A stretch of 64,000 nucleotides of DNA, from positions 1-64,000 of the forward strand of contig NZ_JAEKIW010000003.1 in the NCBI RefSeq assembly GCF_016757965.1, written 5' to 3'. This DNA is from Archaeoglobus neptunius (GTDB taxonomy: Archaea; Halobacteriota; Archaeoglobi; Archaeoglobales; Archaeoglobaceae). The notes beneath the pieces are model-generated. The model did no database searches. It was not told where the DNA came from and was given only the letters and a program-made list of their open reading frames with translations. The position numbers and the translations under genes are program-made. Positions 26,679 to 33,428 of this stretch are shown here, one piece after another (within the stretch, counting starts at the first letter, position 1; every line of letters begins with the position of its first letter).

Positions 26679-26942
26679 ATGTCCCTCAGAAAGGTCAGAC
26701 GGATATTCTTGTTCTACTCAATGATCCTTTCAGGCATGTTCACGATTTTTACTGGATTTGTTCTTTACTTCTGGCCAAGAGGGCCAAGATCGGGCCAGCT
26801 TATTTTCCTTGGATTCCAGAAGCAGTTCTGGCAGGATGTACATACATACGTCGCCCTAGCCGGCGTGATTCTCATAACCCTCCATATTCTGGAGAACAGG
26901 AATTGTGTTAAGATGTACGTTAGGGAGACTCTTAAAGGCTAA
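26679..26942 (+). CDS. Small DUF4405-like membrane protein (possible haem b)
   Basis: 87 residues with two membrane helices (IFLFYSMILSGMFTIFTGFVLYFWP and VHTYVALAGVILITLHILEN). The second helix carries two histidines (DVHTYVA and ITLHILEN) placed 14 residues apart, as in the haem-binding helices of DUF4405/NarI-like cytochromes. A TATA element, TTTATATACATACC (about 26650-26663), precedes the ATG. No partner oxidoreductase is encoded beside it. Overlaps the end of the convergent HTH gene by 11 bp. Confidence 0.65.
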   Translation: MSLRKVRRIFLFYSMILSGMFTIFTGFVLYFWPRGPRSGQLIFLGFQKQFWQDVHTYVALAGVILITLHILENRNCVKMYVRETLKG

Positions 26943-27402
26943 CCATCTCAATTGCGTGTTCCACAGCTTTTTCCACACTCTTCCCGGGCTTAATCGTCAT
27001 CACAGGTATGTCTACAAGCTTTTCTGCAAGACTGCTGAGGATGGGGGCACAGACAATCGCCCTTGCCCCATCTTTTTCGGCCCTCACAATCGCAACAATC
27101 GCATCCTCCAGCGTTGAGGTGGGGTAGACTCTAACCCTCTCATCAACTCTCACGTCCTCAAGTACATACCTGGCGGCGATTAAAGCTATAAAGTCCCTTC
27201 TGTCATACAGGGCCGAAAAAATCTTCGCCAGTGTGTCATATCTTGGCTTGTAGCCATTGAGTATCTTGTAGAGTGTTGATTTGGGCAATCCAGCCTTTTT
27301 TGAGAACTCGGCTGGAGTTATCCCTTTCTCTGCAAGCAATTTTCTCAGGCAATCTCCAAAATTCTCCCCCCTCGCTATGCATTCTGCCAATCTTGCGCTC
27401 AT
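26932..27402 (-). CDS. HTH (XRE-type) transcriptional regulator with ligand-like C-terminal domain
   Basis: 156 residues from the ATG at 27402; a GTG two codons earlier is possible. A Cro/C1-type helix-turn-helix lies at about 17-65 (LLAEKGITPAEFSKKAGLPKSTLYKILNGYKPRYDTLAKIF). A C-terminal alpha/beta domain of about 80 residues (VYPTSTLEDAIVAIVRAEKDGARAIVCAPILSSL...IPVMTIKPG) looks like a small-ligand domain of the PrpR N-terminal kind. It is divergent from the SsuABC-like transporter, whose start is about 100 bp away, so it is a candidate regulator of that operon; its ligand is not known. Confidence 0.7.
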   Translation of the reverse strand: MSARLAECIARGENFGDCLRKLLAEKGITPAEFSKKAGLPKSTLYKILNGYKPRYDTLAKIFSALYDRRDFIALIAARYVLEDVRVDERVRVYPTSTLEDAIVAIVRAEKDGARAIVCAPILSSLAEKLVDIPVMTIKPGKSVEKAVEHAIEMVSL

Positions 27403-27499
27403 AACCACAATAGAACATTAGAAAATAAAATTTTTCTCTTTTGGTTAGTTTTAAATTCTGATCAGAAAGGTTATTAACAAATGCCGGTTACCTGGGCAT

Positions 27500-28522
27500 A
27501 TGAGACGTATTGCAGCGCTGGCCCTGCTCGTTGGGCTGCTAATCGCCGGATGCCAGCAACCAGAGGTAACTAAGCATGAACAGGGGAAGATAAAGGTTGT
27601 AACGATGTCCCCCAGAGATATGGTTGAGCAATTGAAGCTTGGCCAGATTGACGCATTTGTTGCATGGGAACCCTTTGTTAGCGAAGCTGTAATTCATGGT
27701 TACGGAAAAATCATCGCCACCTCGAAGGATATCTGGCCGAATCACCCATGTTGCGTGGTTGCAGCAGCAAAAAACACGGACAGAAAAGTACTGATAGCGC
27801 TGGTGTGGGCACATGTAAAGGCAACGAGATTTATAAATTCGGAAGAGAACAGGGAAAAGGTTCTTGAGTACGCTTCTCAATTCACCGGGAAGAGCAAAGA
27901 AGTGGTTGAGGAGGCTATGAAAAGGATAAAATTCGTAGAATTTCCGGACAAGGATGAGTTTGTGAAGTACTATGAGGGGCTCAGGAATGGTGGGTATCTT
28001 ACAAAAACGCCCGAAGAGCTGGGGTACAGAAGTGAGAAGGAATTTTTATCTGATTTTCTGTATGAGGATATTTACAACTACGTTGTTTCCAAGCTGAAGG
28101 AGAATGAAAGCTGGGTACCCGAAAAGGTTAACAGGAAGGTGAGGATCGGGTACCTTACTGCTGATCTTCATCAGCTTGCCTTCTATGTTGCCTTGAAAGA
28201 GGGTTACTACGATAAGGTTGGTTTGAAGGTTGAGGCAAAGGAATTTGCAAACGGAGTACAGGAGATGGAGGGTTTTAAGAACGGTGAAATAGATGCGGGT
28301 TATCTTGGCGGCGCTCCCGCAACACTTAAGAGGGTCAACGATAACATTAGGATAAGCGTGATAGCTGGAGCCAATGCAGAGGGTTCAGCGATAGTTGCCA
28401 GAGATGCAAACAGCATTCAGGATTTAGCCGGTAAAAAAGTTGCTATTCCTGGATTTGGAACTGTACAGGACTTTTTGCTTAGAATAGCAGCCGAAAAAGC
28501 AGGACTGGGAATAACAACATGA
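27500..28522 (+). CDS. Lipoprotein substrate-binding protein of an SsuA/NrtA-like ABC transporter, lobes in permuted order
   Basis: 340 residues. A lipoprotein signal with lipobox LLIAGC (lipidated C18) leads directly into what is normally the second half of SsuA/TauA/NrtA-like proteins: KVVTMSPRDMVEQLKLGQIDAFVAWEPFV, then IWPNHPCCVVAA. After a linker (about 170-208) comes what is normally the first half: RKVRIGYLTADLHQLAFYVALKEGYYDK (from 211), GYLGGAPATLKR, and DLAGKKVAIPGFGTVQDFLLRIAAEKAGL, where the protein ends. The end would run smoothly into residue 31, as in a circular permutation. The permease gene starts 4 bp inside its end. The substrate may be a sulfonate, nitrate/bicarbonate-like anion or thiamine precursor. 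Confidence 0.8.
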   Translation: MRRIAALALLVGLLIAGCQQPEVTKHEQGKIKVVTMSPRDMVEQLKLGQIDAFVAWEPFVSEAVIHGYGKIIATSKDIWPNHPCCVVAAAKNTDRKVLIALVWAHVKATRFINSEENREKVLEYASQFTGKSKEVVEEAMKRIKFVEFPDKDEFVKYYEGLRNGGYLTKTPEELGYRSEKEFLSDFLYEDIYNYVVSKLKENESWVPEKVNRKVRIGYLTADLHQLAFYVALKEGYYDKVGLKVEAKEFANGVQEMEGFKNGEIDAGYLGGAPATLKRVNDNIRISVIAGANAEGSAIVARDANSIQDLAGKKVAIPGFGTVQDFLLRIAAEKAGLGITT

Positions 28523-29265
28523 GACTTAAAAGTGCTGCCCTGCTCATTCTGATCTGGTACGGAATTTCATTGTTTACCGAGCTACCGTATCCACATGATG
28601 TAGCGGAAACGTTCTTTTATCTTCTGATCCATCCAGAACCTGTTCTCGGAAAAACGCTGATTGAGCATGCTTTTGCGAGTCTTTTGAGGGTTGTCCTTGC
28701 CTCGAGCATCGCATTCAGCATCGCAGTTCCTCTGGGAATAATCACTGGATGGAACAGGAATGCTGGAGAATTGCTGATTCCGGCAATTGAGGCTCTTCGT
28801 CCCATACCCCCTCTCGCATGGATTCCACTGGCATACATAATTTTCTCTCCGTTCCCGAATACGGTTCAGGTGGCCCAAATTTTCATAGTCTTTGTGGGTG
28901 CCTTTTTCCCATGCCTAATTTCGGTTCTGGATTACGCCAGAAACACTCCAGAGGAGCTTCTGGAAATGGCTAAGGCTTTTGGGGCTGACAACAGATTGAT
29001 CCTGAGAGAGATAGTTATTCCACACTCCCTGCAGGGTATTATGACGGGCATCAGGATTGGAATGGGGGTTGGATGGATGAGCATAATCGCTGCGGAGATG
29101 ATCGCCACATCCGGGGAGGGGCTTGGATACTTTATACTGATAATGTATCAGGTTGGGGGAAGGACTGCGGAAATCGTTGCCGGAATGGCGATGATAGGCA
29201 TAATAGGATATCTTATGAACTGGATTCTTGTGAAAACTGAAAGGGTAGTGATGCCATGGCGCTGA
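28519..29265 (+). CDS. ABC transporter permease (SsuC/TauC type)
   Basis: 248 residues with six membrane helices and the BPD_transp_1 coupling loop EELLEMAKAFGADNRLILREIVIPHSLQGIMTGIRIGMG (EAA-type motif). Resembles permeases for aliphatic sulfonates, taurine or nitrate. Overlaps the binding-protein gene by 4 bp and the ATPase gene by 10 bp, so it is the middle gene of a three-gene transporter operon. Confidence 0.88.
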   Translation: MRLKSAALLILIWYGISLFTELPYPHDVAETFFYLLIHPEPVLGKTLIEHAFASLLRVVLASSIAFSIAVPLGIITGWNRNAGELLIPAIEALRPIPPLAWIPLAYIIFSPFPNTVQVAQIFIVFVGAFFPCLISVLDYARNTPEELLEMAKAFGADNRLILREIVIPHSLQGIMTGIRIGMGVGWMSIIAAEMIATSGEGLGYFILIMYQVGGRTAEIVAGMAMIGIIGYLMNWILVKTERVVMPWR

Positions 29266-29945
29266 TCGTTGAGGGTTTGAAAAAATCGTTCGGAAGTCTC
29301 AAAGTTCTCAATGGTGTCAGTTTTTTGGTTGAAGAAGGAGAGTTTATCTGTCTTTTGGGCGAAAGCGGTTGTGGAAAGACCACAATTCTGAAAATTATCG
29401 CCGGACTGGAGGAGGCCGATGAGGGAAACATAATTTTTGAAGGTGGAAGTAGAATCGGATTCGTCTTCCAGGACGACAGACTTTTACCTTGGAGAACTGT
29501 ATACGGAAACATTCTATTTGCGTTGAAGGCCGCTGGAACTGGAGGCAGCGTTGAAGACATAATCAACCTTGTTGGTCTCAGAGGATTCGAGAATTATTAT
29601 CCAAAGCAACTCAGCGGTGGAATGAAGCAGAAAGTTGGAATAGCAAGAGCTCTCGCTGTAAATCCAGATGTGCTGTTGATGGATGAGCCATTTGCCAGCC
29701 TTGATGCAAGAACGAGAGAAAGAATGCAGGAGGAACTTTTGAAAATTGTGAGCGGGAAAAGTGTAATTTTTGTCACGCACAGCATTGATGAGGCCATTTA
29801 TCTGGCAGACAAAATTGTCGTACTGTCTCCACGCCCTTCCAGAGTTGTCAGAACAATTGAAATAGAAATGTCAAAACCCAGAGACAGAAACTCGGAGGAA
29901 TTTGTTGAACTGAGGAGAGAAATTTACGAAATTTTAAAGAGTTGA
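29256..29945 (+). CDS. ABC transporter ATP-binding protein (SsuB/TauB type)
   Basis: 229 residues. Walker A GESGCGKTT, Q-loop in GFVFQDDRLLPWRT, signature LSGGMKQKVGIARA, Walker B VLLMDEPFASLD and H-loop VTHSIDEA are all present. It drives the permease encoded just upstream (10-bp overlap). The LLPWRT wording after the Q-loop is typical of the nitrate/sulfonate/taurine subfamily. Last gene of this operon; the DUF1850 gene starts 16 bp further on and may be read through. Confidence 0.9.
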   Translation: MALIVEGLKKSFGSLKVLNGVSFLVEEGEFICLLGESGCGKTTILKIIAGLEEADEGNIIFEGGSRIGFVFQDDRLLPWRTVYGNILFALKAAGTGGSVEDIINLVGLRGFENYYPKQLSGGMKQKVGIARALAVNPDVLLMDEPFASLDARTRERMQEELLKIVSGKSVIFVTHSIDEAIYLADKIVVLSPRPSRVVRTIEIEMSKPRDRNSEEFVELRREIYEILKS

Positions 29946-29961
29946 AGAAAAAACATGGTTT

Positions 29962-30432
29962 ATGAAAAAAATCATTCCATTGGCAATTCTCATTCTACTG
30001 GTCGCTTCAGCTCAGAACACATATTTGATGATTTCTGGAAATAAAGGTGAATGCTTCGTTTCCGTTGCAGAAGGTGATACGTTCACGGTGTCTTTTATCC
30101 ATTCTGTAGAGCTTTCGAAAGAGATCGATTTTTTCAAAATTGTGAGCGGATCCATAAAGCTGGAGAAAACTCTTGTCAAATCTTCAGGATGGGGGTTACC
30201 AAGTACCGAGAAAAACTTTTCAATAGCAAGTTATAAGGGGGAGGAATGGTTTGAGTATAAAATAGAAAGGGACATCGGTACTTTGAAAATATCCACAAGC
30301 CCTGTTAACGATTACCGGCTTGAAATTGGCGCTTTGAACATTTCACTTGGAGGGTTTGGTAGAGATATCGAAGTGAAAATCGTGAGGCTGAATCCTGCCA
30401 TGGCCATGTTAGGGAGGTGCTGGAATGAATGA
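29962..30432 (+). CDS. DUF1850 exported protein of a TRAP/TAXI transporter locus
   Basis: 156 residues with an N-terminal signal or anchor (KKIIPLAILILLVASAQ) and a beta-rich exported part. The pattern FIHSVELSKEIDFFKI, then LPSTEKNF, matches DUF1850, a family found next to TAXI-type TRAP transporters. Function unknown; it may help fold or dock the binding protein. It overlaps the fused TRAP permease gene by 8 bp, in agreement with the family context. Confidence 0.75.
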   Translation: MKKIIPLAILILLVASAQNTYLMISGNKGECFVSVAEGDTFTVSFIHSVELSKEIDFFKIVSGSIKLEKTLVKSSGWGLPSTEKNFSIASYKGEEWFEYKIERDIGTLKISTSPVNDYRLEIGALNISLGGFGRDIEVKIVRLNPAMAMLGRCWNE

Positions 30433-32434
30433 GGTTGACGTGACCGAGCTTGAGAAAAAATTTTTACACGAGAGAGAACTCAGGGGAAAGTACGCTATCG
30501 TTGTATCGGTGATAGCAATCGTTTTCTCAACATTTCACGTTATTAACGGCTCCTTTACTGGTTTGCTGCAGCATGACGTTGTGAAATCGATTCATCTGGC
30601 ATTTGCAATTGCACTCTCATTTCTCGTCTTTCCAAAAACAAAGAAGAAGGTTGAGAAGAGAATTCCCGTATACGATTTTATACTTGCTGCGGTAGGGTTT
30701 TATGTGGCATTCTACCTGGCAATGAACTATACGGAGATACTTTACAGAGCTGCTGTTGGCTTCACACCTTACGACTTTTTTATCGCATTTCTTGCCGTAA
30801 TTTTTGTTCTCGAGTCGACGAGAAGGGTTGTGAATCCCGCCCTTGTTGCGGTTGCAATTGCTTTCATACTCTACGCCAAATTCGGCTCCGGCCTTCCGGG
30901 GGCACTTTCACACCCGAATTATGACTGGAAACAGATACTCGAACACCTGTATTTCACAAAAGAGGGGATTTTTGGAACTCCTATTGCCGTTTCGTCAAGT
31001 TTCGTCGTTCTGTTTATAATATTTGGCGCATTTCTGGAGAAATCCGGGGCGGGAAAATTCTTCATTGATCTCGCCTACTCACTCACCGGATGGATGGTTG
31101 GTGGGCCAGCTAAAGCTGCAGTTTTGTCCTCAGCCCTCATGGGAACGATATCGGGGAGTTCTGTTGCGAACACCGTTACAACAGGGGCATTCACAATTCC
31201 ACTGATGAAGAGGGTCGGATACAAGCCAGAATTTGCCGGAGCTGTGGAGCCAGCAGCATCAACCGGCGGACAGATAATGCCTCCAATAATGGGTGCTGCC
31301 GCATTCATAATGGCTGAATTCGTGGGAATGCCATACATCAGCATTGTTTACGCAGCAATAATCCCCGCTTTTCTCTACTTCTTCGGCGTTTTCTCTGCAG
31401 TTGATCTCGAAGCGAGGAAGGAGAATCTGAGAGGGATAAGGAGGGAGGAGTTGCCATCTCCTTTTCGCGTTCTCAAAGAGGGATGGTACTACCTGGTACC
31501 TCTTTTCGTTATAATTTACCTGCTTGTTAAAGGTTACACCCCAATTCTCGCTGCAGTTTTCTCGATCTACACGGTTGTAGCGATAATGGTTCTCGAACCC
31601 CTCATCAAGAATGTGAGGAGTGAAGAAAAAATCCCATTTAAAGTTGTGATAAGGGGTATTGCACTGAACATCCTGGCGGCACTTGAACACGGAGGGAGAA
31701 GTGCTGTTGCTGTCGCAATGGCATGCGCTTCCGCCGGCATCATTGTGGGAATTGTGACACTGACGGGACTGGGATTCAAAATTGCGGCATCTGCCATAGC
31801 AATTTCTCACGGATATTTACTCATCATTCTGGTTTTAACCATGCTTGTTTCTCTTGTTCTCGGAATGGGTGTTCCGACCACTGCCAACTACATAATAACA
31901 AGCACAATTGCTGCCCCGGCGATAATCACGTTCATGGCGCAGGGATACGGCATGTCTGTCAGGGACTTTTTAAGTGCCTACCCTGAACTCGTTTTGCCGG
32001 CACACATGTTTGTGTTCTACTTTGGCGTTGCCGCTGATTTAACACCTCCGGTCGCCCTCGCAGCCTATGCTGGTTCAGCCATAGCCGGCAGCGATCCGTG
32101 GAAAACCGGTATTAATGCTGTCAAAATTGGTATCGGAAAGTATCTTGTGCCGTATCTATTCATTTTTTCACCGGTTCTTCTTTTAATCGGTATCAGGACG
32201 TTTGATGATGTCGTTTACCTCCTAACCCTTCTGGCATCCATAATGCTGGGGATCACAGCAGTCAATGCCGGAACAATTGGAAATCTGATCAAACCACTAT
32301 CAAAGCCCCTGAGACTTGTTGCCCTGATTTCTGGCTTGCTACTTCTAGCTCCAAACTATATGATAAAAATTGCTGGCCTTGCCATTTTTATGGGAATAAT
32401 TATAAATCAGAAATACAGTGTATATAATGGGTGA
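30425..32434 (+). CDS. TRAP transporter fused permease (DctQM fusion, TAXI type)
   Basis: 669 residues with about 16-18 membrane helices: a small DctQ-like four-helix part (about 20-150) fused to the large DctM-like part. Typical features seen are LMGTISGSSVANTVTTGAFTIPLMKR and EPAASTGGQIMPPIMGAAAFIMAE in the first half, and the inverted-repeat counterpart VLGMGVPTTANYIITSTIAAPA with DLTPPVALAAYAGSAIAGS in the second. It carries out secondary, ion-driven import of a small organic acid or amino acid supplied by the TAXI binding protein encoded next. Confidence 0.93.
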   Translation: MNEVDVTELEKKFLHERELRGKYAIVVSVIAIVFSTFHVINGSFTGLLQHDVVKSIHLAFAIALSFLVFPKTKKKVEKRIPVYDFILAAVGFYVAFYLAMNYTEILYRAAVGFTPYDFFIAFLAVIFVLESTRRVVNPALVAVAIAFILYAKFGSGLPGALSHPNYDWKQILEHLYFTKEGIFGTPIAVSSSFVVLFIIFGAFLEKSGAGKFFIDLAYSLTGWMVGGPAKAAVLSSALMGTISGSSVANTVTTGAFTIPLMKRVGYKPEFAGAVEPAASTGGQIMPPIMGAAAFIMAEFVGMPYISIVYAAIIPAFLYFFGVFSAVDLEARKENLRGIRREELPSPFRVLKEGWYYLVPLFVIIYLLVKGYTPILAAVFSIYTVVAIMVLEPLIKNVRSEEKIPFKVVIRGIALNILAALEHGGRSAVAVAMACASAGIIVGIVTLTGLGFKIAASAIAISHGYLLIILVLTMLVSLVLGMGVPTTANYIITSTIAAPAIITFMAQGYGMSVRDFLSAYPELVLPAHMFVFYFGVAADLTPPVALAAYAGSAIAGSDPWKTGINAVKIGIGKYLVPYLFIFSPVLLLIGIRTFDDVVYLLTLLASIMLGITAVNAGTIGNLIKPLSKPLRLVALISGLLLLAPNYMIKIAGLAIFMGIIINQKYSVYNG

Positions 32435-32435
32435 T

Positions 32436-33428
32436 ATGATGAAAAAAATTTGGCCGATCTTGCTGCTTCTTTTTGGAGCTATTTTTCTACTTGGCTGCAC
32501 CCAGGAGGGGAAACCTGCAGCGCCCACAGCCACAACCGCTGCTGAGGTAAGAGAGGTAACAATTTTGACCGGGGGCTCGGCAGGAACCTACTATCCAATT
32601 GGAGGTGCGATGGCACAGGTAATAACGGAGTACGCCCCCGGAATAAAAGCGACGGCGGTAACAAGCGGCGCCTCCGTCGTCAATGCCAGAAAAGTGGGCA
32701 CACTTGAAGCAGAATTTGGTCTGATGCAGAACGATGTAGCATATTATGCCTACAACGGAATTGAGATGTTCAAGGACGCAAAGCAGGACAGGTTAAGGGG
32801 TGTCGCAACCCTGTATCCCGAAATAATCCAGATTGTTACGCTCAGGGAAAATAACATCAAGACCGTCTACGATCTGAAAGGGAAGAAGGTGGCAGTTGGA
32901 GCTCCGGGTTCAGGAACTGCTGTTGATGCATTGCAAATTCTGAAGGCTGCAGGAATCGACGAATCCAACGCGGAAATAAGATATCTTAATTTCAAGGAGG
33001 TTTCAGATGCTCTCAAAGACAGAACTATCGATGCAGGCTTCATCGTTGCTGGAATACCTACGGCTGCTGTGAGTGATATCGCAGCAGTGAGAGATGTCAC
33101 AATAGTTGAAGTCCCTGATGAGATATACCAGAAACTCAAGCAGGACTATCCCTTCTACACCCAGGTGACGATTCCGGCAGGCACGTACAAGGGCCTGGAT
33201 GGAGACGTTAAAACCGTAGCTGTTCTTGCAATGCTAGCCACCAATGCTGACCTTCCTGAAGACTTGGTTTACGAGGTGACAAAATCCATATTTGAGCATA
33301 GAGACGTGCTTGAAGCTGCCCACAAAAGAGCTGCTGATATAACACTTGAAACTGCGCTGGAGGGCATGTCCATTCCACTACATCCCGGAGCTGAGAAATA
33401 CTACAAAGAGAAGGGTTTACTCCAGTAA
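32436..33428 (+). CDS. TAXI-family TRAP transporter solute-binding lipoprotein
   Basis: 330 residues from ATG 32436 or 32439; the GGGTGAT ribosome site (32429-32435) decides against earlier in-frame starts. Lipobox FLLGC anchors it outside the membrane. The TAXI signature is clear: TILTGGSAGTYYPIGGAMAQVI, TSGASVVNARKV, EFGLMQNDVAYYAYNG, GKKVAVGAPGSGTAVDA and the closing IPLHPGAEKYYKEKGLL. TAXI proteins in other organisms bind glutamate or other carboxylates. The neighbouring downstream gene, on the other strand, encodes an amino-acid dehydrogenase-like protein, which may hint at the substrate. Confidence 0.93.
   Translation: MMKKIWPILLLLFGAIFLLGCTQEGKPAAPTATTAAEVREVTILTGGSAGTYYPIGGAMAQVITEYAPGIKATAVTSGASVVNARKVGTLEAEFGLMQNDVAYYAYNGIEMFKDAKQDRLRGVATLYPEIIQIVTLRENNIKTVYDLKGKKVAVGAPGSGTAVDALQILKAAGIDESNAEIRYLNFKEVSDALKDRTIDAGFIVAGIPTAAVSDIAAVRDVTIVEVPDEIYQKLKQDYPFYTQVTIPAGTYKGLDGDVKTVAVLAMLATNADLPEDLVYEVTKSIFEHRDVLEAAHKRAADITLETALEGMSIPLHPGAEKYYKEKGLLQ

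Follow-up and report, generated by a model that had tools for sequence, protein, structure and literature searches.

The substrate-binding protein (SBP) encoded at positions 27500..28522 on the + strand of the window, i.e. the complete stretch of 64,000 nucleotides from Archaeoglobus neptunius that was analysed here, is very probably a genuine circular permutant with an NMT1_2/SsuA-type fold and serves as lipid-anchored receptor of an ABC importer, within a family that has probably undergone at least six such permutations at four cut sites. A preliminary description of this DNA had proposed that the canonical second half stands before the first half, and split searches, re-joining and a doubling test agree on this order. 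Searched alone, residues 21-213 of the 340-aa open reading frame match positions 131-247 of the TIGR01728 model (SsuA_fam) and 151-249 of Pfam NMT1_2, and residues 209-340 match SsuA_fam positions 1-129 and NMT1_2 positions 6-149. These matches, with E-values from 1e-10 to 1e-22, are complementary in coverage and reversed in order, do not overlap and leave hardly any gap; the usual lobe order was not seen when the halves were aligned separately to the SsuA family. Residues re-joined in canonical order yielded single unbroken matches to SsuA_fam (1-247) and NMT1_2 (7-249). For the doubling test, a profile HMM was built from canonical relatives only and the mature protein was scored as a single copy and written twice. 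The single copy reached 169 bits over HMM positions 2-131, whereas the doubled sequence reached 310 bits in one domain that spans the join and covers positions 2-292; canonical proteins gained no score on doubling. The window protein thereby shows the defining features of a natural circular permutant, namely swapped halves of one canonical family with complementary coverage.

Membership in the broader family is clear from the NMT1_2 model (PF13379), whose gathering cut-off of 24.7 is exceeded both by the native protein (118.6 bits in two reversed pieces) and by the re-joined sequence (132.0 bits in one piece). The curated SsuA_fam cut-off of 163.5 lies above the native (124.5 bits) and the re-joined score (139.4 bits); the canonical relative L043 reaches 192.9 bits. 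The designation as SsuABC-like, given in the preliminary description, therefore fits as a label at the level of the fold but not as a narrower assignment, since the cut-off is missed even after re-joining and the substrate suggested by several related operons is one of corrinoid methyltransferases rather than a sulfonate. The SaoP and SaoA models are the best-scoring named models for the permease and ATPase of the window, yet the scores against SaoX, SaoP and SaoA (NF040735, NF040733 and NF040729; 71.1, 131.2 and 217.1 bits) are far below the equivalog cut-offs of 300, 295 and 360. For this reason, similarity to SaoX was dropped as a clue to the ligand.

All parts expected for a lipid-anchored receptor are found along the gene (+ strand throughout). 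A signal peptide with the lipobox LLIAGC (27500..27553) predicts lipidation of Cys18; in the alignment with 17 relatives C18 is invariant and G17 nearly so. The canonical second half, SsuA_fam positions 131 onward, is now N-terminal (aa 31-201, 27590..28102) and, as judged from split searches and the structural model, is followed by a linker (aa 202-211, 28103..28132) and by the canonical first half, SsuA_fam positions 1-129 (aa 212-338, 28133..28513). In the model, helix 189-201 and strand 212-219 flank this linker, which connects the old C-terminus with the old N-terminus. The N-terminal part carries the invariant WEP motif (aa 56-58, 27665..27673), which also occurs in canonical relatives, and an HPCC motif (aa 82-85, 27743..27754), which aligns with the HPxK-type motif of NrtC/CmpC domains and is likely to lie near the ligand site.

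The permease and ATPase genes were described as intact and overlapping, and this is the case: the start codon of the permease gene (BPD_transp_1, 28519..29265, +) overlaps the SBP stop codon, with an overlap of 4 bases, and the ATPase gene (ABC_tran, 29256..29945, +) overlaps the permease end by 10 bases. The locus thus has the adjacent permease and ATPase genes that characterize an ABC importer of the SBP-permease-ATPase type. A divergently transcribed gene for an HTH_3 regulator, whose C-terminal stretch weakly resembles PrpR_N, adjoins the SBP gene (26932-27408, - strand). A divergent open reading frame of equal size also precedes the SBP in L021, and so the regulator may control the operon. 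On the 3′ side of the operon, and on its strand, lie genes for a DUF1850 protein, a membrane protein of 669 aa that resembles a transporter, and a solute receptor of the TAXI type (29962-33428); these probably constitute a separate TRAP-type system.

According to structure prediction the rearranged chain still folds as one unit. The AlphaFold model, for which 18 permuted sequences were used as input, is one compact protein (pLDDT 91.6, pTM 0.86) and not a pair of incomplete half-domains, which is consistent with the earlier statement that both lobes are complete. The canonical relative L043, modelled in the same way (pLDDT 94.3, pTM 0.87), has secondary-structure elements that recur essentially one for one in the window model, with two blocks exchanged, so that the fold is predicted to be preserved. 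The new ends would lie in lobe 2, after the final helix of the first half and before the strand with which the second half opens; a cut in a loop between helix and strand had been postulated, and the model confirms it. It is very improbable that the protein is a non-functional or half-active remnant in which the halves no longer form one binding fold, given the predicted compact structure, the invariant residues in both halves that match canonical relatives, and an intact operon that is kept across phyla. As a functional receptor, the protein would hold its ligand between two complete lobes and hand it to the permease as in any SBP, with the old ends joined via the short linker and with the membrane tether attached through lobe 2 instead of lobe 1. 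Foldseek depends on chain order. The canonical model found SsuA, TauA, NrtA and CmpA (E-values from 1e-21 down to 4e-23, TM up to 0.87), and the permuted model obtained only weak matches in the PDB, to OpuAC and OppA-like proteins, with TM values of 0.2-0.4. The best of these is OpuAC, which was not accepted as proof of a shared cut site.

The window genome is a draft assembly of 32 contigs, and the swapped halves could in principle stem from an artefact of assembly or a frameshift, or from two gene fragments that were joined by chance in this genome alone. However, all 17 close relatives that were aligned (34-80% identity) share the permuted order, the lipobox and invariant residues from both halves, which argues that the order is no artefact. 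About 100 genes in many genomes, among them the single-contig genomes G005 and G017, have this order, with conserved lipobox, reading frame and overlapping operon. Conservation across genomes refutes the artefact, whose probability we regard as negligible. Except for one record from Thermoplasmatota, the 22 loci L021-L042 derive from Archaeoglobi and their relatives; 21 of them show the permuted layout and the remaining one is fragmentary. Within the matches listed, full-length window-type proteins were found in 72 of 393 genomes of Halobacteriota and in 9 of 194 genomes of Thermoplasmatota, and in the sampled Firmicutes phylum 7 of 249 genomes gave window-type matches (one of them fragmentary); the matches listed from 148 Asgard and 247 Desulfobacterota genomes contained no permuted copies and were all canonical. 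It had been suggested to look for the same order in other Archaeoglobales. It is indeed present in these relatives but is not confined to them, since Thermoplasmatota and Firmicutes possess it as well. The nearest canonical relatives have about 50% identity in the first half. The window-type order is an old and widespread sub-family of an SBP family which was permuted several times at differing sites.

Permuted and canonical members have the SBP-permease-ATPase neighbourhood in common. The motifs WEP, HPCC, DLH, NxxGS and PGxxxxQ are invariant in the permuted set and largely recur in the canonical set, which suggests that both probably have the same binding site. In several loci the operon adjoins corrinoid-methyltransferase genes: in a Ferroglobus-like genome (L083), in related Archaeoglobaceae (L034), in Firmicutes (L220-L222) and, with a canonical SBP, in Chloroflexota (L074). 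The neighbours there encode MtaA/CmuA-type URO-D proteins, an MtrH-like methyltransferase and the RACo activator, and in several of these loci also a B12-binding corrinoid protein and a CMD-family protein. Based on these neighbours in other genomes, our leading though tentative guess, to which we give slightly less than an even chance, is a methylated compound used by corrinoid methyltransferases. The window operon has no methyltransferase genes beside it. Since canonical L049 and L054 adjoin radical SAM genes of the MSMEG_0568 type, the ligand may differ within the family. For methoxydotrophy in A. fulgidus, MFS transporters and not this ABC system were named for the mto cluster (PMC8359953).

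Further classification of the layouts was done with half-specific HMMs. The window type, P131, is by far the commonest, and other cuts are located at profile positions of about 71, 93 and 168; all four sites fall in loops of the canonical model. P71 was found in 16 Thermoplasmatota loci, P93 in two separate cases, L200 and L201, and P168 in L213; both P93 cases, P168 and the tandem described below come from one draft genome each. The P93 protein L200 consists of the signal of L019, a canonical relative from the same genus, followed by L019 residues 153-355 (69% identity) and then by residues 55-152 (84% identity), which places the cut exactly between 152 and 153; its linker includes the post-lipobox segment of the canonical protein. 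L201 compares with canonical L228 at 65% and 82% identity, and here the core is swapped while the signal peptide and the PGF-CTERM-like tail are both retained. Among the matches listed, the genes matched in the L201 family have the canonical order. Such pairs also bear on domain shuffling, i.e. an origin of the halves from different genes, as was raised before for TpMglB-2 (PMC4990184). In the present family this origin appears highly unlikely, as canonical proteins of one sub-family turn up as relatives of either half and the pieces of L200 and L201 match one canonical gene each, at 65-84% identity and with an exact joint.

Permutation of a single gene would instead have started with a tandem gene duplication, followed by complementary trimming in which the first copy loses its front half and the second copy its back half. 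L204 (P71; L204:3385-5754) contains a 790-aa open frame in which two permuted SBP units of close similarity are fused in tandem, possibly a snapshot of the duplication stage. A relic of a second SBP copy was sought beside L200, L201, L213 and L132, and none was found. Two other candidates for tandem duplicates, open reading frames of 1170 and 819 aa (G234 and G230; L252 and L253), turned out to be single canonical SBPs with long repeat-rich or other extensions. The open reading frame just upstream of the permuted SBP in L014 and L033, considered as a leftover half, is a separate SBP-like protein without signal peptide. In L033 this signal-less protein (L033:5037-5912) lies directly upstream of the permuted SBP and has a weak NMT1_2 match (35 bits); L084 in G009 is similar.

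In a tree of 98 representatives, calculated from about 300 un-permuted columns and with long branches, eight changes among six states are required. The window P131 clade (100/99) is separate from the methanomicrobial P131 clade (100/100), and the latter nests with canonical proteins of methanogens in a clade supported at 100/98. P168 protein L213 pairs with the P71 protein L214 (100/100). A conservative count of two events for P131, two for P93 and one each for P71 and P168 leads to probably at least six permutation events at four cut sites. We regard it as rather unlikely that a single ancient permutation at site 131 was followed by reversions and shifts of the cut, even though P131 dominates, the P131 proteins of the window lineage and of Thermoplasmatota are placed near each other, and only two canonical rows lie inside that region. 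For groups named after the tree was seen, the AU test rejected uniting the window and methanomicrobial P131 proteins (p=0.0066) and disfavoured uniting the window lineage, P71 and P168 without the canonical rows (p=0.025). Moreover, L200 and L201 pair with canonical proteins (100/99 and 100/94), and any reversion would itself be one more permutation.

Several independent events remain the preferred reading, and the four cut loops, at about 71, 93, 131 and 168, are presumed to lie at or within lobe 2, given the usual architecture of Type II binding proteins. The tether would then have moved repeatedly from lobe 1 to lobe 2. We give roughly even odds to the view that one sub-family was permuted independently at least six times at these loops, which would point to selection for re-tethering, or to a fold that is unusually tolerant, rather than to chance.

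With SsuA/TauA/NrtA-type SBPs (NMT1_2 PF13379, NMT1, TIGR01728) the window protein shares homology over both halves, the same fold elements and the same set of SBP, permease and ATPase; it differs by the swapped halves, a tether probably on lobe 2, the HPCC motif and a score below the SsuA_fam cut-off. TpMglB-2 (Tp0684) of Treponema pallidum is a naturally permuted binding lipoprotein of an ABC transporter that still binds sugar (PMC4990184), but its Type I fold (cluster B) is unrelated and its cut site is different. Relations by circular permutation were also found by structure between the glycine betaine-binding proteins OpuAC and ProX and molybdate-binding proteins and CysB, with less than 24% identity between pairs (PMC2395249), whereas the pairs described here share 65-84% identity, and their several cut sites all belong to a single sequence family. 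Repeated natural permutation in one family is known from DNA methyltransferases, where it was explained by duplication and two-sided truncation (PMC5944983 and references there). These enzymes have a different fold, and the natural C5 cases apparently show one type of permutation, in contrast to four sites here. The preliminary description knew of no permutation in the SsuA-type family, and our literature searches, with subscription papers mostly outside their coverage, likewise found no earlier report for the NMT1_2/SsuA type. New are the family itself and the recurrence of permutation at several sites, with canonical partners that are closely related.

Order-dependent tools such as Foldseek, full-length HMM coverage and curated cut-offs mis-score permuted proteins, which should serve as a warning. 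Natural circular permutations usually represent a single ancient event between distant proteins. This SBP family combines ancient with more recent events, a pair from a single genus, a possible stage of tandem duplication, and conserved operons that serve as functional control. It resembles a natural experiment in circular permutation, in which the choice of cut sites, the part played by the membrane tether and the model of duplication and trimming can be tested directly.
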